From a virus, in IMG/VR virus record IMGVR_UViG_3300036846_000743, positions 1-64,000 of that record: a stretch of 64,000 bases of DNA. One strand, given 5' to 3'. This document shows, piece by piece, positions 9,615 to 62,778 of this stretch. The notes under the pieces are model-generated. The model was given only the letters and a program-made list of their open reading frames with translations. It ran no database searches and was not told the origin of the DNA. Position 1 is the first letter of the stretch. Every line of letters begins with the position of its first letter. A program made the position numbers and the translations under genes.

Positions 9615-10311
9615 GGTTAGCTGCCAGCGGCTGGCCCATGGCCGCGCGCCAGTAGTCGGTCGGGATCTTGGCCTTGTGACCGGCCTTGTGCAGCGCCGCG
9701 TAGATCGCGGGCGCATCGTCTCCCCACCATGCCAGCGGCAGGTTGGCCAACCAGAACAGCTGGTAGATGTTGAAGTCACGGTCCTGGCCGCCGGTTAGCT
9801 CTACCAGCCGCTCCAGGGCACCGCCGGTCACTTCGAGCTGGGTGAGCTGGCGTCTTTCCGCTCGCTGTGACTCGGTCAGGCGTGGCGAGTCCTGGGACTC
9901 GTCGTGCGGACCGGCTGGATAGGGGCCGCGCCGCTCGAATGAAGCTCGCTGGCCACCGACATCATAGTCTCGTCCAATGCCGAAATACAGATACGGCTCG
10001 CGCATCTGGAAGCACCAGCGCGTAGGGTCAATCACCTGCTTGTCCGGGGTCTCGATCCAGCCGTGTCGCTGGAACGGCCAGCCATGTCTGGGATGCTTCT
10101 TGGAGACCGGACCATAGTAATGCCCGTAGCGATCGACACCCACTACGAGCTTGGCCTTGAGCATCTTGCATGAGATCTCGTGGCATCGGTTCACCCAGCG
10201 ATTGGCCTTGAGTCCGATCGCTTTCTCGACTTCCGCGATCGACGGCAGATCGAGTGCTGTGGTGTTCGAAGCCCCGGCCTTGGGCATGACAACTCTACGG
10301 CGCTTCTTCAT
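9607..10311 (-). CDS. Hypothetical protein with transglutaminase-like Cys-His-Asp pattern
   Basis: 234 residues. N-terminus is basic (MKKRRRVVMPK). Seen: NRCHEISCKML near residue 42, then RHGWIETPDKQVIDPTRW near residue 82 and YLYFGIGRDYDVGG. A Cys in a helix followed by HxW and a DPT segment is the usual catalytic order of transglutaminase-like (papain-fold) proteins, so a peptidase or amide-modifying activity is conceivable. The C-terminal 100 residues are helical. Lies between the proline-rich protein and the antirepressor. The fold call is inference from a short pattern. Confidence 0.5.
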   Translation of the reverse strand: MKKRRRVVMPKAGASNTTALDLPSIAEVEKAIGLKANRWVNRCHEISCKMLKAKLVVGVDRYGHYYGPVSKKHPRHGWPFQRHGWIETPDKQVIDPTRWCFQMREPYLYFGIGRDYDVGGQRASFERRGPYPAGPHDESQDSPRLTESQRAERRQLTQLEVTGGALERLVELTGGQDRDFNIYQLFWLANLPLAWWGDDAPAIYAALHKAGHKAKIPTDYWRAAMGQPLAANLP

Positions 10312-10699
10312 GCTTCAACTCCTGCTTGGTGAAATAACCGGATTGCACGCGGCAGCCGCGACGCCTGAGCCAGGCCATCTGCGCCGCGCGTGATGCCATG
10401 GGGTCGTACCTGGCCCACATCGCGATGTGCTGCCGGAGCTGAGGCGTCAGCCTGGTGCCGTGCTTCTCGTAGATGACGCGGAACCGCTCGCTGTTGACGT
10501 AAGTATCGTCGGCCCATCGCAGCACGCGATCCCAGCACCGACTACGGCTGTTCGACAGGGTCCTCGGCGCGTAGACCAGCGAAGCATTATTGCCCATGAC
10601 CATCGGCACGATAGCCATGAACATGCTGGGCGGCTGCGGCGGTGGGGGTGGTGGAGGTGGTGGCGGGGGCGGAGCCCAGCGCGCGGCAAGTGCGACCAT
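10295..10699 (-). CDS. Hypothetical protein with polyproline run
   Basis: 134 residues from ATG 10699. After MVALAARWA comes a run of twelve consecutive prolines, QPP, then a short hydrophobic stretch and a basic helical C-terminal domain (RFRVIYEKHGTRLTP, MASRAAQMAWLRRRGC). Twelve prolines would normally stall ribosomes without EF-P. Function unknown. Overlaps the 9607 gene start by 17 bases. Confidence 0.5.
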   Translation of the reverse strand: MVALAARWAPPPPPPPPPPPPQPPSMFMAIVPMVMGNNASLVYAPRTLSNSRSRCWDRVLRWADDTYVNSERFRVIYEKHGTRLTPQLRQHIAMWARYDPMASRAAQMAWLRRRGCRVQSGYFTKQELKHEEAP

Positions 10700-10714
10700 C
10701 AGAGGGATCCTCCT

Positions 10715-11818
10715 TCAGGTTCGTTTATCGCGGAAACAGCCGTAGCGGGCAACAAGCCGCCGGCCTTCGCGGATACTCAAATAGGCGAGAGCATCCTCGA
10801 CCGGCACCCGCGGGTTGATGAGCCCATCGGGATAACGCAGCGCCCTGGCCACGGCAGACACCACCACGCGACGTTTGGGCCTGGGTATGACGACATGGAG
10901 CAAGGGCTTATTGCTCCGTGCCAGCTCGTGCACCTTCTTGGGCACGTTGGCACCGTCGACGGCCAAGATCACCTGATGGACCTGGACCTCCCAGGGATAA
11001 GCATGATCATCGACGCAGCGGAAGTGAATCACTTCGAGCATGCCGCCGCCTGGCCCGGCAGCCTTCAAGAGCGCCTTGGACTCGCTCAGCCGATGAAGCC
11101 GGGCATCGGGCGCGCCACGGACGCGGCTATCCAGGAACGTGCTCAGGCCACAGCGCTGGATCGTGCCGCTGATCAACTGCCCGCTCTTGTCTCCCGTGAT
11201 CCGGACATTCCTCACAGGCTTTGGCACAGATCGCGGCAACCGGAAGGTGAAGATCCGCCGGACCAGGTCGTAAGGACTCTTGCTGCCGACTTCGACGTCC
11301 TTTATACTCCGTATAAAGGACGCCGACTTCTCAGGTTTCGGGCCAGTATCGACCGGCCGGACCCGCCGTTTTACCCCTGGTGGTGACGGAAAGAAGCGCG
11401 AGTCGATCTTCAACCAGTATTGCCTGACGTCGCGCGCCCAGCAGAACGGACAGATCTGCCTGAGCTTGCAAGGTCTACGACCTTCCTTCTTGTCGAAGGT
11501 CATGACAAAAGCCACCGGACAGGACATGGCGTTGGGCAATCGCGACTTCTTGCCAGGCAGGTTGAATGGCTTCCAGCCCGCCTCAGCCAGCTGGACGACC
11601 CTGCGACGCCACAGATGCAGTATCCAGGCCGTGGCATCTGAGATATCAGCGTCGCTCCTGAGCCGGCCGAAGGTGGGCCGCAGAACCGCGGAGAGCTGAA
11701 CCTGGTCTTGGTACCGCAACGGTACCGCCGAGACCCTGTAACCGGGATTGGGCGGCCTCTTGCGAAACCTGGAACCGTCCGATGGAGACGCCTCGACGTC
11801 TAGGAGCTTGTCTGACAT
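10715..11818 (-). CDS. Possible replication initiator protein
   Basis: 367 residues from ATG 11818, the first start after a gene-free, palindrome-rich region. Seen: a Cys motif CKLRQICPFCWARDVRQYW (about residues 118-136), a strand PWEVQVHQVILAV that resembles a degenerate HUH metal-binding strand, and a C-terminal RRLVARYGCFRDKR. This order (CPFC-x2-R, His strand, RR-x3-(F/Y)G-x-FR) recalls rolling-circle Rep and related initiators of plasmids. Evidence is motif resemblance plus position next to an origin-like block. Alternatives: a DNA-binding phage protein of another kind. Confidence 0.4.
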   Translation of the reverse strand: MSDKLLDVEASPSDGSRFRKRPPNPGYRVSAVPLRYQDQVQLSAVLRPTFGRLRSDADISDATAWILHLWRRRVVQLAEAGWKPFNLPGKKSRLPNAMSCPVAFVMTFDKKEGRRPCKLRQICPFCWARDVRQYWLKIDSRFFPSPPGVKRRVRPVDTGPKPEKSASFIRSIKDVEVGSKSPYDLVRRIFTFRLPRSVPKPVRNVRITGDKSGQLISGTIQRCGLSTFLDSRVRGAPDARLHRLSESKALLKAAGPGGGMLEVIHFRCVDDHAYPWEVQVHQVILAVDGANVPKKVHELARSNKPLLHVVIPRPKRRVVVSAVARALRYPDGLINPRVPVEDALAYLSIREGRRLVARYGCFRDKRT

Positions 11819-12055
11819 GGGACCTCCGTGGGGCCATTTGGGGCAGTTTGCGACAGTTTTCGCCAGATGCATTTGACCACGGAATGAGTGACATACGCTT
11901 GTCGCAATCATTCCAGGCTGCGCAAGTCTTGAAGGGTTCGAGACTTCTGGAGAATTAAACAAGTTGCACCAAGTGTTGCAACTATTGAAGCCTCGGACGC
12001 AAGTACTTGCTGGTATTGGTTTTAGTTAGCCTAAATATGGGAAGAAGACTTGTCA

Positions 12056-12087
12056 AGTCACTAGCCTATTGTTTTTTGCTAGTGACT
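12056..12087. repeat. Inverted repeat with 10-base arms
   Basis: AGTCACTAGC (12056-12065), 12 bases, GCTAGTGACT (12078-12087), perfect. One arm, GCTAGTGACT, recurs exactly at 9521-9530 upstream of the antirepressor, suggesting a shared binding site. Confidence 0.6.
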
Positions 12088-12101
12088 ACTACGTAGATAA
12101 C

Positions 12102-12145
12102 TTTTTGTGAGAGGTCGCCGCTTCGCGACCTCCCTCTCACAAAAA
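12102..12145. repeat. Long imperfect hairpin
   Basis: TTTTTGTGA + GAGGTCGC (12102-12118) pairs with GCGACCTC (12125-12132) and TCACAAAAA (12137-12145), with a four-base bulge: 17 base pairs in all. The flanks are T run on the left and A run on the right, so it is not a standard rightward terminator. Confidence 0.6.
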
Positions 12146-12251
12146 CGGAAAACTTTTTTGTTCGCTTTTTCGATCCGGTACCCAAGTCCTAGCGCCACCA
12201 TCTCGCGCGCCGATCCGGCGAAGCCCTTGAGTCGCCGTCACGGCACCGAGA

Positions 12252-12291
12252 TGCTACTTCCGAGGTAGCATTGCTACTTCCGAAGTAGCAA
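12252..12291. repeat. Tandem palindrome pair
   Basis: Two adjacent 20-base units, each TGCTACTTCCGA(G/A)GTAGCA, each itself palindromic. Directly repeated palindromes of this size resemble iterons or dimeric operator sites. Confidence 0.6.
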
Positions 12292-12426
12292 ACCTGCGGG
12301 ATCTAGCGCTATGTTAAGTCCCACAGGTTTTCGTCCTGAATTCCCGGGAAGGGGGAAATTCTTTCATCCGGCTTTCCCTATAGGGCCCTGTTTTTGGTTT
12401 TTTGAGACCCTACTCTCTTGTTTAGT

Positions 12427-12473
12427 GTTCACAGTGAACGCTCGCGTTCACTGACGTGAACGTTCACGTTCAT
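12427..12473. repeat. Cluster of GTTCAC/GTGAAC half-sites
   Basis: Five alternating half-sites (12427, 12434, 12446, 12456, 12462) plus a partial one in 47 bases, including GTGAACGC-TC-GCGTTCAC and a perfect GTGAACGTTCAC. The arrangement fits cooperative binding by a dimeric regulator or initiator. Confidence 0.6.
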
Positions 12474-12485
12474 ACCAGCCAGCTA

Positions 12486-12502
12486 ACTGTTCGAGGAACA
12501 GT
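12486..12502. repeat. Inverted repeat with 7-base arms
   Basis: ACTGTTC GAG GAACAGT, perfect arms, only a dozen bases after the half-site cluster. Confidence 0.5.
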
Positions 12503-12778
12503 GCGCACATGCCTAAGAGGATCCCCAACTGCTGATCGAGGCTGGTCTTTCATTTGCACCCGTCAGTCTTCCACTTCAGGGCTCGAGCTTTTCACAAAGA
12601 CCGGTTTTTCCCTCGAACTTTTTCATTTCGAAGTCAAAGTCTTTCGTGCGGCTTTCCCAGGAGGTCTGTTATCTAGCTCTAATGTTTAGATCCCCAGCCA
12701 GCCAGCGCTGGTTGGCCGCCAACCAGCGACAACCAGCGACAGCCAGAGCTGGCAGGCCCCTGAAGCGCGCAATCCATT

Positions 12779-12802
12779 GCCGCGCCAACAGCTTGGCGCG
12801 GC
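12779..12802. repeat. GC-rich hairpin with 10-base arms
   Basis: GCCGCGCCAA (12779-12788), CAGC loop, TTGGCGCGGC (12793-12802): a very stable perfect hairpin. Just to its left lie direct repeats AACCAGCGAC/AACCAGCGAC (12720-12740). Confidence 0.55.
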
Positions 12803-12850
12803 TCCAGTTGCGCCGCCAGCATTGGCGTCTGGCTTCGCTGATCACTTGGA

Positions 12851-12875
12851 GTAGTGAATGTTGGTTTTTCACTAC
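12851..12875. repeat. Inverted repeat with 8-base arms
   Basis: GTAGTGAA (12851-12858), nine bases, TTCACTAC (12868-12875), perfect. Confidence 0.5.
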
Positions 12876-12900
12876 CTTGACTTTCCGAAAGGGACTTTCC

Positions 12901-12966
12901 GTTCAGCAAAGTTCCGCTGGTTCATGAACCGGCGATGAACCAGCGAACCAAGAAACTTCGCTGAAC
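12901..12966. repeat. Nested cruciform-type repeat
   Basis: Outer arms GTTCAGC (12901-12907) and GCTGAAC (12960-12966), middle AAGTT/AACTT, inner arms CGCTGGTTCAT (12915-12925) and ATGAACCAGCG (12935-12945) with a nine-base loop. The nesting makes a branched or cruciform structure possible. Confidence 0.6.
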
Positions 12967-12970
12967 TCGA

Positions 12971-13011
12971 GGGTTGGTTTTCCAACCCTGGGAGGGTTGG
13001 TTTTCCAACCC
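12971..13011. repeat. Two identical 18-base palindromes
   Basis: GGGTTGGTTTTCCAACCC at 12971-12988 and again at 12994-13011, a 23-base period. Identical sequence in both copies argues for a functional binding site or recent duplication. Confidence 0.6.
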
Positions 13012-13174
13012 ATCTGGCGCAAGTCCGATGCAGATCCTATTTTCGCTCCGATGAAGATCCGATGATCGAGCGGTTGCTAGCCTTAATATTTAGGCACTAC
13101 TAGGCATGTGCGCACCGAAGCGTCCCGATGCGACTGGAGACGTCGCCAGCCGCTCAAATGTAACCAGAATGTGG

Positions 13175-52393: not shown

Positions 52394-53092
52394 TTACGCC
52401 TTGCGGACGGACCTGCGGAAGTACCGTCTGTAGGCGAGCACACCAGTGAGCCCGATGCCCATCAGGGACATCGAGGCAGGCTCAGGCACGGCCTGCTGCG
52501 AGAAACTACCGTTAGCGACGATCGTCGAACCTGGCGTCGCGAACAACCCGGCAAAGCTATTGATCCCCCCACCGAAGGTAGTTCCGGTAAAGGTGAAGTT
52601 GATATCGCCGCCCTTGGCAAACAGCGAGTAGTCAAACCGTGGGTTGTCGTTCTCGATCAGACTGACGATCTTGCCGCTCATATTGAAAAAGTTGGGCAAA
52701 ACGGTCGGGGCAACACCAGTCGTGGCGGTGAACGTCAGCATCGCTTCAGCGCCCGGCACGTCGCCAACGGTCTTGGTATAGGTTGATGGCGACAGCGCCA
52801 ACGAGTAGGTCTCCGAGCCAGTAGGCGTCACCAACAAGGTGATCGGCCCGTTGACCGAGATCGGCTCAGGTGTCAGCAGTGACACGCCGTTGACCGTGTT
52901 CACCTGACTGAACAGATTGGGTATCCGCGCGATCTCGATCGTCGCGGTACCTCCCGAGATCCCCATGTTCGTCAGCTCGACACCGCCGATCGAACCGGAG
53001 TCGCTGAACACCACGGTACCGGCTTGCGCCGATCCCAGGCCGGCGATCGCAGCGACCAAAGCCATGGCAAAACAGAGAGAACGCATCTTCAT
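52394..53092 (-). CDS. PEP-CTERM domain surface protein
   Basis: 232 residues from ATG 53092 (GGAAGT and GGAG upstream). N-terminal signal peptide (RSLCFAMALVAAIAGLG, AQA cleavage). A Thr/Gly/Ser-rich middle with beta repeats. C-terminal VPEPASMSLMGIGLTGVLAY followed by RRYFRR is a classical PEP-CTERM sorting tag (PEP motif, membrane helix, basic end), cut by an exosortase. The protein would be exported and anchored or processed at the cell surface. Unusual on a phage-like replicon. Confidence 0.85.
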   Translation of the reverse strand: MKMRSLCFAMALVAAIAGLGSAQAGTVVFSDSGSIGGVELTNMGISGGTATIEIARIPNLFSQVNTVNGVSLLTPEPISVNGPITLLVTPTGSETYSLALSPSTYTKTVGDVPGAEAMLTFTATTGVAPTVLPNFFNMSGKIVSLIENDNPRFDYSLFAKGGDINFTFTGTTFGGGINSFAGLFATPGSTIVANGSFSQQAVPEPASMSLMGIGLTGVLAYRRYFRRSVRKA

Positions 53093-53119
53093 ACTTCCGA
53101 TACTCCATACTAGAGACAC

Positions 53120-53133
53120 GAACAGCGCTGTTC
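53120..53133. promoter_or_regulatory. 14-base perfect palindrome
   Basis: GAACAGCGCTGTTC about 30 bases before the PEP-CTERM start codon; a possible operator or translational element. Confidence 0.4.
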
Positions 53134-53180
53134 CGTACTCCACGCACGGAACCTGAAGCCCGGGCTATAGGGCTCCATAG

Positions 53181-56003: not shown

Positions 56004-56924
56004 TCAGGCTTCGTAAGCCTTCGACCAGAATTCCCGGTTCTTCCTGGCGACGTCGGCGGTGAACATCGGGAACCGGGTATCCTGTTTGCCCTCGCGGATG
56101 CCCGAGATGGTCACGACAAAGCGCGTGGGAATGCCGTGCGAAGTGTCGCCAACGTCCAGGAAGATTCGGCCGTTGTCGATCATGACGCCGACGGCACAGG
56201 GCAGATTGGGCGCCACGGCGATTGGCAGAAGTGAGCCCGACACGCAGACATCGAGGAACCGCTGGTCCAGCTGGACCATTACACGTTTCAGCTTCTTGCT
56301 GTTGGGAATATCATAGACATCGAAGAACCTGGCCTCGGGCATCTCGGCACAGAACAGGCCAACGTAGTCATCGTCGGCGTTATTGAGCGGCATGATGGCA
56401 TACTTGTCACCCTGTGCGCCGGTTTTCCCTTGGGTTCCCTGCGGGCCTTGCGCGCCATCAGAACCGTCCTTGCCGTCTGTACCGGCTTTTCCGGGGTATC
56501 CCTGCGGGCCAGGGTAGCCAATCCCGTCGTCGCCTGGAGGGCCTTGAGTGCCTGTGCCAGCGGGACCAGGATCGCCTTTGGGCCCCGCCGGGCCCGGCAC
56601 CGTACTGGCCGGGCCAATCGGGCCAGTCGGGCCGGGGGGACCATGCGGACCGATCGGACCTGGAACACCGACACCACCGATACCTTGGAGACCTTGGGGA
56701 CCCTGGGGACCTTGGGGACCCTGGGGGCCTTGGATACCCTGGATGCCCTGAATTCCGGACGGACCAGTGACCGGGATCGAAAGCCAGGCGTCGCAGTTCA
56801 TGATCGCCTGGGGCGCGTCGGGCACCGTGCAGTCGTTGATGAACGGCTCAATACCGATCGGGTGCAGATCCGGAGGGACCGGGCACTTCGTTGCATCGAA
56901 AATGGGGTCTGGAAAGTTAGGCAT
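56004..56924 (-). CDS. Collagen-like fibre protein
   Basis: About 306 residues from ATG 56924 (GAGGA eight bases upstream; stop of the previous gene overlaps as ATGCCTAA). Central region of about 35-40 Gly-x-y triplets, starting [15 protein letters not shown], then mixed triplets with Pro, Lys and Asp. A C-terminal globular part of about 130 residues ([20 protein letters not shown]) probably mediates trimerisation or binding. Collagen-like stalks are well known in phage tail fibres and bacterial surface proteins. Overlaps the previous fibre-type gene. Confidence 0.8.
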
Positions 56925-57927
56925 CGCCCAGGTCCTCGACAATCACTTCGACTGCATCGCCCAGGTCCTCGATGATCGTGCTGGCAGCTGCACAGACGGT
57001 CATGTCGTGCCGATCGAAGTCAACGATCAGGCTCGTGTTGTCGTCGGACGATGTGATCGTGGTGCCCACATCGGCAACCAGCAGAATGACGCTGGCCGTC
57101 AGCCCGTTAATGCCGTAGATGACCTCATCGCAGGCCGGCCCGCCGCTGAGCAGGCTGCTCCCGGGCGGAGGTTGCTCATCGGGCGTGAGTGGCAGCTCGC
57201 CGAGGGGCGCGTCCTCACCGCAAACCACGCCGGCGCCGCCGGCCAGCACCGCCATGAAGGTGATGGAATTGGTTCTGGTATTCTGGCGGATCGAAACGTT
57301 GAAGCCCTCCTTGAACCGCAGATCCCCCACCAGATTGCGTGCATTGATGATGTATTCGAGCGGCGAAGCAGGCAAGCTGCCGCCAGGACAATCATCCGGT
57401 GGTGTTACATGGGTGCGATCTTGATTGGCCAGATTGATCGTCCGGACATAGCTCCGGCTCAGGTTCTGGATCCGTGCCGGCTCGATCTGTGGGCCTGTGG
57501 TGGCCGCCAGCGTACCGTCTGCGGGCATCAAGGCGGCAAGGTTGTCCATTGGGCCGGTGACCAGGAAGCCCTCCCAGAGCGGCGGCTGGGGCGGCGGAGA
57601 GCTTCCCAGAGCCACAGCCGCAACGTAGTTGGTCGCGAACTCAGCATCAGTCAGATCACGACTGAACTTCAGTGCATATCCAACCAGGCCAGGTGCGCTC
57701 GAACGAAAGTCAAACGTGAACGTATTGCCTGCACGCGTGACCTGATGCAGGTATATAACGTCCTTGGTGTCGTCGAATTCGGAGTCGAGCCCCACCAGGC
57801 AGCCGAAGTCGAGCAGCGTATCCAGGGGCAGGCGGAATTCGGCTGGCTTGTCCGATAGCGCGTTCGAGAACGGGATCAGCGGATAGGCCCGTCCTTCGTT
57901 GTCGTTGCAGAATCCCGGCCGCGCCAT
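56917..57927 (-). CDS. Fibre/appendage-like protein (R-x-YPL family)
   Basis: 336 residues from ATG 57927. Starts with [16 protein letters not shown]; rest strand-rich with Gly/Asp ([14 protein letters not shown]), ends VEDLGDA. Related by the N-terminal motif to the genes at 57931, 58704 and 61813. Probable virion or host-contact protein. Confidence 0.6.
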
Positions 57928-57930
57928 GCG

Positions 57931-58701
57931 TCACCTCAGCTGTACCCCGTGAACTGTGCTGCCCACCAGACCGATGATCAGTGTATCCGGCGGCTTGGGA
58001 ACGATACGCAGGACCGTGTCGGGAGCGGAAGCATTCGCCACGGCGATCTGGAAGTTGCCCTCGGAGTCGGGTGCGATGCCATTGATCGTCTTGACGAACC
58101 GCGGGGGCGAGTATGACTGTGCCGGATAACAGAGCCGGCGCGCAAAGAGCGGGTCACCCACCACGTCGACCCGGATTGAGCCGTCGTCGTCCAGGCTGAC
58201 CTGAATGCCGTTCTCGCCAATGATCCAGGTATCGCCGGTGAGCAGGATGCCCTGCGACGCGAGCAGGCCGCGCACGCCTTCCTCGGGCGTGGAGATCGTG
58301 CAGCTGGCGGCGAACTCGGTGGCCCCGATGTCGAAGACATGCGCGCCCGTCGGCCATGACTGGGCCGACGCCAGTAAGATGGGATCGGCCACGAACAGCC
58401 CGGCAGGCCGGCCGTAGCCATCGGCCAGAGCAATCAAGTTCGGCGGCGCCAGCGGATCGAACGAGCCTGACGCGAGCTGGGGCCTGGTGGCGTCACCGAT
58501 CCAGATCGTGACGACGCGGTTCGAGACTTCGAGTGATGAGATGTAGACCCGCGGGCCGGCGCCGATCGGATAGACGACCGCATCGATGAGCATATCGGGG
58601 GTCAGACTGATCTTGTCCCGCGACAGGAGCGTAGCCGTGTCGGCGAACGGATAGAGCGAGTCCAGGTTCTCGTTGCGAAATTCCGGGTGAACAATTCTCA
58701 C
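57931..58701 (-). CDS. Fibre/appendage-like protein (YPF/ING family)
   Basis: 256 residues from GTG 58701, two bases after the TAG of the previous gene. N-terminus VRIVHPEFRNENLDSLYPFA matches the shared N-x-R...YP(L/F) motif. Near the end KTINGIAPDSEGNFQIAV carries the ING-x-P-x3-GNF motif common in tail-fibre proteins. ATG 58884 would extend it over the previous gene and is less likely. Confidence 0.6.
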   Translation of the reverse strand: MRIVHPEFRNENLDSLYPFADTATLLSRDKISLTPDMLIDAVVYPIGAGPRVYISSLEVSNRVVTIWIGDATRPQLASGSFDPLAPPNLIALADGYGRPAGLFVADPILLASAQSWPTGAHVFDIGATEFAASCTISTPEEGVRGLLASQGILLTGDTWIIGENGIQVSLDDDGSIRVDVVGDPLFARRLCYPAQSYSPPRFVKTINGIAPDSEGNFQIAVANASAPDTVLRIVPKPPDTLIIGLVGSTVHGVQLR

Positions 58702-58703
58702 GG

Positions 58704-60434
58704 CTAGCCCCCGAACGGATTGTCTGAATCCCAGAACGAGATGAAGCTGAACCGGCAGTGCGCGTTGTTGGCCCCGAACCCGATCTTGCCGCCGTGGATC
58801 AGGTTGATCCCCCAGGGCTGCATCACCTCGATCAATGTGAAGCTCGGGTCCTCGAGCGGCTTGAGCACGATGGTGAAGTTCCACAGGTCCTTGTTAGGGC
58901 CAGGATTGGGACTGATCGCGCTGTTGACGCTCAGCTCGTACCAGAGCCCGGGCTTGGGCCTGTTGGTGCCGAACGGGAACCCGACAGCCATGGTGAGCCC
59001 GCCGCGAAAGACATTGAACTCCAGGTAATTGGTGACCAGGTTGGGCCCGATGGAGAAAAAGGTCGGCATCCCGCCCATCGTGGGGTCCTGGGCAATGTAA
59101 TTGAGCACGATGGCGCCGTTCATCTGGGGCCCGGGCATGATCTTGATGTCGGTGCCAACGTTCAGATTCATGTTCAGGAAGTCATAGTCGCAGTCCCAGA
59201 TCGACACGCTCATCTTGGATGGGTTGGTGCAGGCGTAGCTCTGATTGATACTGGTGATCGTCGGGGCGGTTGTCCGGGTGGCCCGGTGCAGAGGTGGAAA
59301 GCCCGTGAACCCCAGAGTACGCCCGGGCGCAGGACCGGGCCCCGGGCCAGTTGCACCAGCAGGCTCCTGCGGCGAGTCGTCCGCTTCGATGGCCCAGTCG
59401 CCCTTCATCGGGACCCACGCCGACGATATGCCGAAGTCAAAGCTGTCGTAATAGGGCATCGGAACACAGCCTGCCGGCAATGGTCCCGGCGGTGTCGGCG
59501 TCGGCCCCGGCTCGGGTGTCGGCGGCAGTGGCGGCGGGCACTCATCCGGATACGTGCCGGGTAGGTTCCCTGCGCTGTCGGGCAGCGTATCTTGACCCAG
59601 ACAGACATCGGCCATGCCCAGCGACAGGTCCAGGGCAAAGCCGCCGCCACCCTCGAACGGCAGGTACTTCAGGATGTCGTAAGCCTTGCTGAAGTCGATG
59701 GTCAGATTGCCGTCACAGTCGGGCTGGACGGTGTTGATCATCTCGAGCACCGGCCTGCCACAGGTGTTGCTTTCAGGCCGACCTCCGCAAGGGCCCGTGT
59801 AGTAGCTGTAAACGTTGCGGTTCAGACTATCGATCAGGCCAATCACGATGGCGTCGACGTCGCCGCTATCGATGTTGCGTATCTCCTGCGTCACCGCGAT
59901 GTCGGTGCTGCCCAGAAGCTGGATCACGCCGGTCAGGGCCTGACTCAGGCCGAGCTTGCCCAGGGAACGGACCGGCAGGGGATCGTAGGCCAGGGCCACG
60001 CGGGGCAAGAGTAGCGACTGGCCCGGCGAGCTGAACCGGCCCGAGTAGGGCTCTTCGATGCCGCGGCCGAAGACCAGCCAGCCTCCGACGCCGCCGGCCA
60101 TGGGCTGGATTGGGTAGTGCCGGTTGGGTGTAACCGGCTTGGGCAGCGAGACCGACCCCAGGGGCTGCATGGCCACACCGTTCCGCAGCACACCACCCGG
60201 CGGCAGGACTGCGGTAGGAGTCGCCATGATCACGGCCGTGACGATACTTGGTCCGACAGTCACGCCGCTGAGGTAGGCGAACTGACCGATGGTCGTGGGG
60301 AACCGGATCCGGCAGTCGACCAGGATCTGGGGCGGTAGCTCCCGCCCGCCGTCGTCGCGCGCCGTCGCCGCGTCATCGAGCGGGTAGGCTCGGGTCGCAT
60401 TGGCTGCATACCAGTCCGGGTTCCTGATGCCCAT
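58704..60434 (-). CDS. Large fibre-like protein with lectin-like domain
   Basis: 576 residues from ATG 60434 (AGGAAGAACTG upstream). N-terminus GIRNPDWYAANATRAYPLDD; INTVQPDCDGNLTIDFSK in the middle (the ING-type motif); a Pro/Thr-rich linker (PPLPPTPEPGPTPTPPGP) and a C-terminal part (WYELSV, WNFTIV, IGFGANN) that resembles a concanavalin/LamG-like beta sandwich. Probable receptor-binding protein. Lectin call is inference. Confidence 0.6.
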   Translation of the reverse strand: MGIRNPDWYAANATRAYPLDDAATARDDGGRELPPQILVDCRIRFPTTIGQFAYLSGVTVGPSIVTAVIMATPTAVLPPGGVLRNGVAMQPLGSVSLPKPVTPNRHYPIQPMAGGVGGWLVFGRGIEEPYSGRFSSPGQSLLLPRVALAYDPLPVRSLGKLGLSQALTGVIQLLGSTDIAVTQEIRNIDSGDVDAIVIGLIDSLNRNVYSYYTGPCGGRPESNTCGRPVLEMINTVQPDCDGNLTIDFSKAYDILKYLPFEGGGGFALDLSLGMADVCLGQDTLPDSAGNLPGTYPDECPPPLPPTPEPGPTPTPPGPLPAGCVPMPYYDSFDFGISSAWVPMKGDWAIEADDSPQEPAGATGPGPGPAPGRTLGFTGFPPLHRATRTTAPTITSINQSYACTNPSKMSVSIWDCDYDFLNMNLNVGTDIKIMPGPQMNGAIVLNYIAQDPTMGGMPTFFSIGPNLVTNYLEFNVFRGGLTMAVGFPFGTNRPKPGLWYELSVNSAISPNPGPNKDLWNFTIVLKPLEDPSFTLIEVMQPWGINLIHGGKIGFGANNAHCRFSFISFWDSDNPFGG

Positions 60435-60463
60435 CAGTTCTTCCTAGCTGAAGGTTGACACGA

Positions 60464-61828
60464 TCAATAGAACCATGGCCCTGTCCACGTGCCTTGCGGG
60501 CTGTAATGGGGAACGTTTTCCTTGGTGATGGTGACGACCTCCCCGGTGATCGTTATCGTCGCTCCCCAGGGCGGCGAGAGCAGCATCTCGAACGTGCCGC
60601 GCCATCCCTGGACCCGCATGGCCGCTACCCCACCGACGTGAGCAGTATAGGAGCCATTGGGATTCTGCTCTGGCTTGTAGGGGGCCATTTGCTTCTTGCC
60701 GAACTGCGTAATGTAAGTCGAACCGGGCACGATCTGCCAGGGAATTGGCGGGTCGCTCACGAGGTTGGCGGTCAGCTGCCCGTCGTAGAGGCAGTCACCC
60801 GTCATGTTGCAAACCCCGAAGCTGAAGTCGATGAACCTGGGGGGCCGGATTCTGGCGTCAATCTGCACCACGATGTTCTCGCGGCATTCCTTCTGCGCGT
60901 TCCATCGTTCCTTGGCCACGATGAATTCGTCGCGGGTGGCCTCGGCCTTGGCGGACGTGGCCCGCAGCTTGGCTTCGAGATCCAGGATGGCGCGCTGGAC
61001 GTTGACGAAGTCATCGCAGTCGCAGCACGGTCCGCAGTTATTGCCCAGCGCGAGGGCGCCCGGGGTCGGCACGGCCGTGTTGCCGGCCCCGATGGAGATC
61101 AGCTGCCGGACGAAGTAGCACTTGTCAGCCGCGAGGGCGAAGTTGCCCTGGTCATCGGGCCCGACGCCGCCAATCCTGCGTATGACAAGATCAGGATCCA
61201 CGCAGCCCGGATAGCGGCCTATGCCATTGCCGGGGTTAGCGTTGTAGGTCAGCGCGGTCGTGTTGCTGAGCGGCTCGGCGTAAGGCTTGGGGATGATGTC
61301 CATGTTGTAGCCGCAGCGGAATACGATCTCATCCGTGACGAGTATGGCTGGGTTGTTCTTCTCGCTCAGATACAGCAAGCGCTCCGGTATCAGGTAAGAA
61401 GTTCGCTCATCGAGCACGCCGTTCACAGGAATGATCTCATCGGGCCAGTCAGGACGATCCTCGGGGACGGCTGTGTGCTGCACGACCCGGCAGACAGCGC
61501 CCTGGGGAAAGAGCCACTCATGGACGCGCAGCCGCGGGCCGAAGGGCTTCCAGTAATAGTGCGCGTCGGGCGAGTCGAACACGGTCGCGCCATTGGCATC
61601 GACGATCGTGATCTGGGCGCTGGAAGATACGTCGTCGAATGCCTCCTGAAAGCCCGACAGGAAAGAAACGCTGAACGGCAGCACGGCATCGTGGTTCTCG
61701 TGCGCCAGCCAGAGATCGGCGAGCAGCCCGACAATGTCATCACTGGGCTGCACGAACGGGAAATTGGATCCCTGAGCTTCGACGCCAGTGCCTTTGCCGC
61801 CAGTCGGTAGAATCAACACTGGATACAT
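60464..61828 (-). CDS. Fibre-like protein with coiled coil
   Basis: 454 residues from ATG 61828. N-terminal domain (MYPVLILPTGGKGTGVEAQG) differs from its relatives, but the middle has RRIGGVGPDDQGNFALAADK (ING-type), a CCDCD cluster and a helical segment (QRAILDLEAKLRATSAKAEA). C-terminal part strand-rich, ending PQGTWTGPWFY. Belongs to the fibre array. Confidence 0.55.
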   Translation of the reverse strand: MYPVLILPTGGKGTGVEAQGSNFPFVQPSDDIVGLLADLWLAHENHDAVLPFSVSFLSGFQEAFDDVSSSAQITIVDANGATVFDSPDAHYYWKPFGPRLRVHEWLFPQGAVCRVVQHTAVPEDRPDWPDEIIPVNGVLDERTSYLIPERLLYLSEKNNPAILVTDEIVFRCGYNMDIIPKPYAEPLSNTTALTYNANPGNGIGRYPGCVDPDLVIRRIGGVGPDDQGNFALAADKCYFVRQLISIGAGNTAVPTPGALALGNNCGPCCDCDDFVNVQRAILDLEAKLRATSAKAEATRDEFIVAKERWNAQKECRENIVVQIDARIRPPRFIDFSFGVCNMTGDCLYDGQLTANLVSDPPIPWQIVPGSTYITQFGKKQMAPYKPEQNPNGSYTAHVGGVAAMRVQGWRGTFEMLLSPPWGATITITGEVVTITKENVPHYSPQGTWTGPWFY

Positions 61829-62778
61829 CCTTGATCGTTCAAACGTGAACCTAAGATGATCTGGCTGAAGGTATTGAGCTGGAGCGCGAGCTGATCAACG
61901 AAGCTCTGAAGAGTCGCCTCACCCGTACCCAGGATCTGGAGTTCCTGGGTGACGTATTCCAGTTCCGCGCACCCGCAGCACGGCGACGAGCAGCTGTCGT
62001 TGAGTTGAAGACCGTTGCTGAGCGGATTGATCGTCAGGCAGCTATCACCGGTCAGGGAGAAGTCGCCATTGGGCAAGGGCGATACGCCGTTGATCCTGCG
62101 GATCGGTGGACCGATAGTTCCCTCGCAGGCGCATTGCTCAGTCAAGCCAGCACCATCGATGGCATCAAAACGAACCTCGGCCGGGACAGCCGGCGAGGTG
62201 TCAGTGGCCTGGGAGCCCGGGGTCACCGAGATCTGCATGTTGCTCCCTGACGACAGGATCACGTGCCCGGTCAGCCTGTCACTCAGTTCGCCGTTATTCA
62301 GGACCCGGAGCGACTGGATGCCGCGGATCATCGGCCGGATGCAATCACTGTCGAGCCCGCCGCCATTGATGTCGAAGGAGAACTGCCCGGTCGGCTGAAG
62401 ATCGATCGAACCGAGCTGGCCGATGACGAGCTTGCCCACCGAGTCATCGAACGGGTAAACCCCTGGCAGGGAATAGGTCGTGTTCGGTACATGCGTGACC
62501 TTGCTGATGATGGCCGAGGCAACAATGGCCACGCCGTCGCTGCTGTTGTACCCGATCGAGATGTTGTAGCCGGTCGCGAAGATCGAGATCGAGGCGAGAA
62601 AGAATTGATCAACGTCAACGTTGACCCCGGCATGCGCGGGGAAATAAAGCTCCAGGATAAAGTCATCGGGCAGCTTGAACGTGCCGGTGAGATCGGTCTT
62701 GGTGGCATCATCGGACAGCGGATAGGACCGCTGCGAGTTATGATTGAGCCACTCCAGGTTCCAGATACCTACTGGCAT
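61813..62778 (-). CDS. Fibre/appendage-like protein (YPL/ING family)
   Basis: 321 residues from ATG 62778. N-terminus GIWNLEWLNHNSQRSYPLSD; later RRINGVSPLPNGDFSLTGDS and a CCGCAE cluster followed by a helical stretch (LEYVTQELQILGTG). Shares N-terminal, ING-type and Cys-cluster motifs with 58704 and 60464. Probable adsorption protein. Confidence 0.6.
   Translation of the reverse strand: MPVGIWNLEWLNHNSQRSYPLSDDATKTDLTGTFKLPDDFILELYFPAHAGVNVDVDQFFLASISIFATGYNISIGYNSSDGVAIVASAIISKVTHVPNTTYSLPGVYPFDDSVGKLVIGQLGSIDLQPTGQFSFDINGGGLDSDCIRPMIRGIQSLRVLNNGELSDRLTGHVILSSGSNMQISVTPGSQATDTSPAVPAEVRFDAIDGAGLTEQCACEGTIGPPIRRINGVSPLPNGDFSLTGDSCLTINPLSNGLQLNDSCSSPCCGCAELEYVTQELQILGTGEATLQSFVDQLALQLNTFSQIILGSRLNDQGCIQC

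Follow-up and report, generated by a model that had tools for sequence, protein, structure and literature searches.

Five ancient paralogues in fixed order form a putative tail-protein array in a large uncultivated phage

The stretch of DNA analysed here (the window) comprises bases 1-64000 of the 226,073-base IMG/VR virus record IMGVR_UViG_3300036846_000743, which derives from a large, uncultivated, contractile-tailed phage. Six genes lie on its minus strand in the order A, B, C, D, E and then F (Table 1). The products of A-E are diverged paralogues related by common descent. Relatives were collected in steps: a search with A as the query gave 13 loci, the neighbouring baseplate wedge gene gave one more and an alignment of A gave 78 IMG/VR contigs, which include all of the first 14.

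The gene run and the region common to A-E

An earlier note on this DNA had described two motifs in these genes: an N-terminal YP motif in A, C, D and E and, in A-D, an ING-type motif of the kind known from tail-fibre proteins. The open reading frames and both motifs were located as claimed, the latter as ING-V-x-P-x3-GN(F/L). The strict ING motif has four matches among the six-frame open reading frames of the whole 226-kb record, all four of them inside the array, and none in 300 shuffles. The membership of the two motifs as listed was correct but incomplete, as B carries a degenerate N-terminal motif (SNFPFVQPSDDI), at which its orthologues show (Y/F)PF, and E carries an ING-type element. The CC-x-C clusters said to be common to A and B are present as CCGC and CCDC, respectively, and are almost invariant among the orthologues. 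The start of gene D, in contrast, had to be revised. A start at 58884, as listed previously, would give approximately 61 additional residues that are missing from the orthologues; from our reading of the sequence, the gene instead begins with a GTG at 58701, two bases past the stop of C, and the protein then begins MRIVHPEFRNENLDSLYPF, in agreement with the orthologues.

Table 1. Genes, motifs and predicted domains of the array (window positions).
Feature	Position	Strand	Remarks
Gene A	61813..62778	-	321 residues; YP motif, beta domain, ING element, CCGC cluster, C-terminal helix; 56 orthologues aligned
N-terminal motif RSYPL of A	62716..62730	-	
ING motif INGVSPLPNGDF of A	62059..62094	-	
CCGC cluster of A	61969..61980	-	Orthologues
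C-terminal helix of A, 44 residues	61840..61971	-	Predicted; AlphaFold model residues 270-313
Gene B	60464..61828	-	454 residues; degenerate YP motif, ING element, CCDC cluster, poorly conserved C-terminal part; 53 orthologues
Degenerate N-terminal motif SNFPF of B	61754..61768	-	Orthologue comparison
ING motif IGGVGPDDQGNF of B	61139..61174	-	
CCDC cluster of B	61016..61027	-	Orthologues
Gene C	58704..60434	-	576 residues; common N-terminal region and C-terminal lectin-fold domain; 49 orthologues
N-terminal motif RAYPL of C	60378..60392	-	
ING motif INTVQPDCDGNL of C	59703..59738	-	
Lectin-fold domain of C, residues ~324-572	58719..59465	-	Fold matches of AlphaFold model
Gene D	57931..58701	-	256 residues; common region only; 53 orthologues
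N-terminal motif SLYPF of D	58645..58659	-	
ING motif INGIAPDSEGNF of D	58051..58086	-	
Gene E	56917..57927	-	336 residues; 52 orthologues
N-terminal motif RAYPL of E	57877..57891	-	
ING-type element INGLTASV of E	57088..57111	-	SINGLxG in orthologues
Gene F	56004..56942	-	312 residues; collagen-like fibre protein; Pfam Collagen and PHROG tail fibre matches

The likeness among A-E extends well beyond the two motifs that had been noted. All-against-all profile-profile comparison with hhalign paired A with B-E at probabilities of 98.8-99.4% (A-B 99.4, A-C 99.1, A-D 99.3 and A-E 98.8%) and C with D at 98.7%; the remaining pairs gave 96.1 (B-E), 95.8 (D-E), 95.1 (C-E), 92.6 (B-D) and 42.7% (B-C). 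All 25 control comparisons of A-E with five neighbouring families stayed below 1%. The common region spans approximately 250 residues, from residue 1 to about residue 255, and C, D and E match over most of this length, B mainly over its second half; E is the most diverged paralogue after B. A plain hidden Markov model (HMM) also cross-detects paralogues in divergent loci, as when the A protein of contig L098 matches the D model at 2e-25. Searched against its own genome, the A profile detects B, C and D, and no sixth paralogue was found there.

As ING-type elements occur in unrelated fibre proteins, it might be argued that A-E share no common descent as whole proteins and that short ING and YP elements have simply gathered in neighbouring genes. 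This explanation is scarcely credible and is refuted at the sequence level, as the profiles match over the whole region against controls below 1%, plain HMMs cross-hit in divergent loci, the models of A and C share the order of their elements (see below) and the ING motif has no chance occurrence in the shuffles. The proposal that the array arose by duplication of genes with a common N-terminal part is thereby upheld.

Distribution, gene order and history

A-B-C-D-E occur once each and in the same order in 71 of the 78 contigs. Of the remaining seven, six are truncated at the limits of the fetched stretch, and the seventh, L098, has a fifth gene whose divergence precludes a firm assignment. 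More distant copies of the array likewise have five genes. Additional genes lie between A and B in four contigs (L018, L022, L039 and L065); those of L018 (2921-6249) and L022 (11289-15238) are large and have no PHROG match. Members of the A family also occur in four bacterial genome bins, labelled Phycisphaerales (L103), Synechococcaceae (L104), Methylococcales (L105) and Planctomycetaceae (L106). The contigs concerned are probably viral ones that were binned together with bacterial DNA, and the labels give a weak, faint hint of the host.

In a tree of 70 proteins, the grouping follows gene position and not the phage. A single branch separates each of A, C, D and E from the rest, and the total of four label changes is the minimum. 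Support is strong for C (100/99) and D (96/94) and is weaker for A, B and E because of their long branches. The distance matrices of the common regions, compared for 44 phages, correlate pairwise with r of 0.86-0.94. The grouping by position, the fixed order and the correlated distances therefore show that the duplications are older than the divergence of the phage group and that the set is inherited as a unit.

The retention of one gene of each kind in constant order, together with the correlated evolution of the five and the conserved cysteines that several members have in and after the ING region, would also fit a single hetero-oligomeric structural body (a ring, a hub or a branched fibre core), in which the paralogues replaced the copies of a homo-oligomer and from which F and the lectin domain of C project. 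We consider this rather unlikely. Linked genes that are passed on vertically as one run also give correlated distances, so that the correlation alone is not proof of physical contact.

Predicted structures and variable ends

AlphaFold models were obtained for A (mean pLDDT of 80.5, with residues 20-150 mostly above 90) and C (mean pLDDT of 76.8). Their N-terminal elements follow in much the same order, namely a helix, six strands, a short helix and two strands that lie at matching positions, so the common N-terminal fold on which the duplication proposal had been staked survives the comparison for A and C. The C-terminal helix of A is probably a coiled coil, judging from the model. A C2-like domain (Z score of 5.3) was considered for A and was not accepted as its identity, as the arrangement is a common one. 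Foldseek matches of A to the baseplate and fibre of Haloferax tailed virus 1 (probability of 0.02-0.03, root-mean-square deviation of 24) were discarded, and a fold search of a viral structure library with A gave no match at an E value of 0.001.

The C-terminal tip of C is predicted to adopt a concanavalin A-like fold. The closest match is the carbohydrate-binding module CBM66 (PDB entry 4b1m; VIA-align Z score of 18.4, root-mean-square deviation of 2.2 over 155 residues), and many lectins also align with Z scores above 16; Foldseek returned an E value of 2.5e-6 and 33 matches at 0.001 or better. The tip thus resembles carbohydrate-binding domains of the concanavalin A-like type, CBM66 included, in fold, but the identity is only ~14%. 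Going by the fold of the model, the tip may bind glycans.

Variation among the phages is concentrated at particular ends of these proteins. When conservation was assessed in 40-residue blocks, the first 40 residues were the best conserved part of A and were among the best in B-E, and the least conserved were the C-terminal parts of B and C. Between phages, the common part of A has a median identity of 0.44, the lectin domain of C one of 0.24 and the C-terminal part of B one of 0.21. A is also well conserved towards its C-terminus, where the mean pairwise identity is 0.51. L011 and L012 have two copies of the lectin domain in C; L032, L098 and L099 have none, and in L092 it could not be recognised. 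The tip is altered or replaced in L058, L089 and L092: the C orthologue of L058 (10479-14165; 1228 residues) also contains an FGE-sulfatase-type domain, together with a long repeat rich in serine, and the C-terminal half of the L089 orthologue (10267-13053) matches a seven-bladed beta-propeller (Lactonase, 2.5e-42). No reverse transcriptase of a diversity-generating system was found on the L058 contig, which is a fragment. Separately, the E orthologues of L011 (15519-16979) and L012 (16595-18052) have a Golvesin_C-like domain inserted soon after the YP motif, the latter scoring below the curated cut-off.

Gene F is usually the next gene after E in the relatives and is often collagen-like. The window protein matches the Pfam family Collagen (PF01391) at 7.2e-13, and collagen repeats are present in five of the ten F proteins of relatives that were scanned. 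Compared by their N-termini, the F proteins keep a Cys/Pro-rich start in nearly all loci; the rest is highly variable, with lengths of up to 1356 residues.

The earlier note had taken the array for several adhesins with distinct C-terminal parts, made by repeated duplication. The duplications are ancient, and the adhesin claim is supported only for C, with its lectin fold, and possibly for B, with its least conserved C-terminal part. A, D and E instead look structural, as the last element of A is a conserved helix and D and E stop shortly past the ING element. Exchange of the kind that interchangeable adhesins should show was seen only at the C tip and in F. The receptor-facing parts are likely to be the C tip, F and perhaps the end of B, because the variation sits there. 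A stronger version, in which A-E are five separate and functionally equivalent adhesins that share an anchor and each end in a receptor-binding part of their own, could draw on the common N-terminal region, the lectin tip of C and the exchange of tips in some relatives. It is nevertheless improbable: a separate C-terminal domain is lacking in A, D and E, conservation is high at the end of A, and members have not been gained, lost or reshuffled in the 71 contigs.

Known systems, neighbouring genes and proposed role

Pfam gave no credible match for A-E, and the profiles of A, C and E found nothing significant in a sequence search of the PDB. In the latter search, 'Esterase D' entries that fall in the lectin region of C reached a best E value of 0.046, which is not significant. 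Weak PHROG matches were obtained for E (phrog_7871 of unknown function, 1.1e-5; phrog_5838, a virion structural protein, 0.0018) and for A (phrog_9992, a baseplate assembly protein, 0.0055). A tblastn search of 50,697 phage records with three A proteins (the window protein and two orthologues) and one C protein gave no match, and no phage of this group is among these records.

The surroundings of the array are those of a contractile tail. The strand that carries it also has, further upstream, a tail sheath gene (phrog_279, 82852-85650 of the record) and a gp6-like baseplate wedge gene (phrog_6, 67605-69272 of the record), and the upstream neighbours are likewise kept in the relatives; the position of the array is the usual site of peripheral baseplate and fibre genes. 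A scan of the array for promoters and terminators found promoter-like sites not to be in excess. A protein resembling an RNA polymerase sigma factor (phrog_351, 9.5e-7) is encoded amid the baseplate genes (L002:10213-11004, which is 70212-71003 of the record, minus strand). PEP-CTERM is a surface-sorting signal of bacteria, and a 249-residue protein of this phage record (window 52394-53143, minus strand) has such a signal at its C-terminus (PF07589, 5.6e-6).

In phage T4, gp9-gp12 and wac are trimeric proteins of the peripheral baseplate, short fibres and whiskers. The present array also follows a gp6-like wedge gene and ends with a fibre gene, but A-E differ in being paralogues of one family, and hhalign gave 1.9% or less for T4 gp10, gp11, gp12 and wac against A-E. 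The closer parallel in organization is gp131-gp135 of phiKZ, a jumbo phage with a contractile tail and a tandem run of five paralogous structural genes (tail tip and structural). As a control, hhalign from single sequences recovered most of the phiKZ paralogues, with gp131 finding gp132-gp135 at 95-98%, whereas every pair of A-E with gp131-gp135 stayed below 1% and hmmsearch --max reached a best E value of 0.029 with scores near zero. The phiKZ proteins lack the YP motif and have one loose ING-like match, in gp132. gp131 is not among the fold matches listed for the A and C models, a missing match that does not exclude a gp131 fold. Salmonella phage SPN3US gp168-gp170 are paralogues related to the phiKZ family and are thought to belong to the baseplate or fibres (PMC5694885). 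Several fibre or spike genes are also clustered in the jumbo phages RaK2 and phiKp24, which have branched fibres (PMC3622015, PMC9700779), and some proteins of the RaK2 cluster share a conserved N-terminal segment of ~50 residues and differ in the rest (PMC3622015). There, a short common N-terminus stands on mostly podovirus-like spikes, whereas A-E share ~250 residues and occur strictly once each. At the sequence level, the comparison covers the tblastn searches with A and C, which gave no match in the phage collection. Arrays of paralogous tail proteins are thus known in jumbo phages and the kind of array is ordinary, but the family is new.

On balance, we think it fairly probable that A-E are fixed-position proteins of the baseplate or of short fibres and that a single position, that of C, is exchangeable and binds glycans. 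The computed basis for this reading is the homology, the gene order, the co-inheritance, the lectin fold and the neighbouring tail genes; we infer presence in the virion, trimers, the docking role and glycan binding. The five ancient duplicates would be located at the tail tip and would be expressed from a single operon-like run of genes, which lies between those of the baseplate wedge and fibre gene F. Their common N-terminal region would consist of a short YP-motif segment, a beta-sandwich-like domain and a beta region closing in the ING hairpin, and it may dock and oligomerise each paralogue, probably as a trimer, at its own baseplate or fibre site. The assembly may be stabilised in part by the cysteine clusters in A and B and by the helix at the C-terminus of A. 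The sites would not be interchangeable among A-E, which would explain why each phage has one of each in the same order. Contact with the host surface would be made by the lectin-fold tip of C, by F and possibly by the C-terminal part of B.

Several observations weigh against this assignment. The B-C pair is weak (43%), and B aligns to A chiefly over A residues 133-283. The pTM values of the A and C models are low (0.53 and 0.47, respectively), and trust is therefore placed in single domains only; for the N-terminal domain, the best fold match is the C2-like one, which is not a confident match. The distances of the lectin tips correlate almost like those of the common regions (r of 0.86-0.88), and the tip is therefore not freely swapped in most lineages. 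Finally, the phage group is known here from sequence alone.

We also put forward, as a tentative proposal, that A-E form one hetero-oligomeric adsorption organelle of widespread uncultivated jumbo phages, in which each of the five ancient paralogues would occupy one position and only C would carry an exchangeable receptor-binding tip (a lectin, an FGE-type domain or a beta-propeller). A-E constitute a previously unannotated tail protein family that can serve as a marker for diverse uncultivated jumbo phages, and experiments can be prioritised by treating A, D and E as the probable structural members and the C tip and F as the parts that probably bind the receptor.

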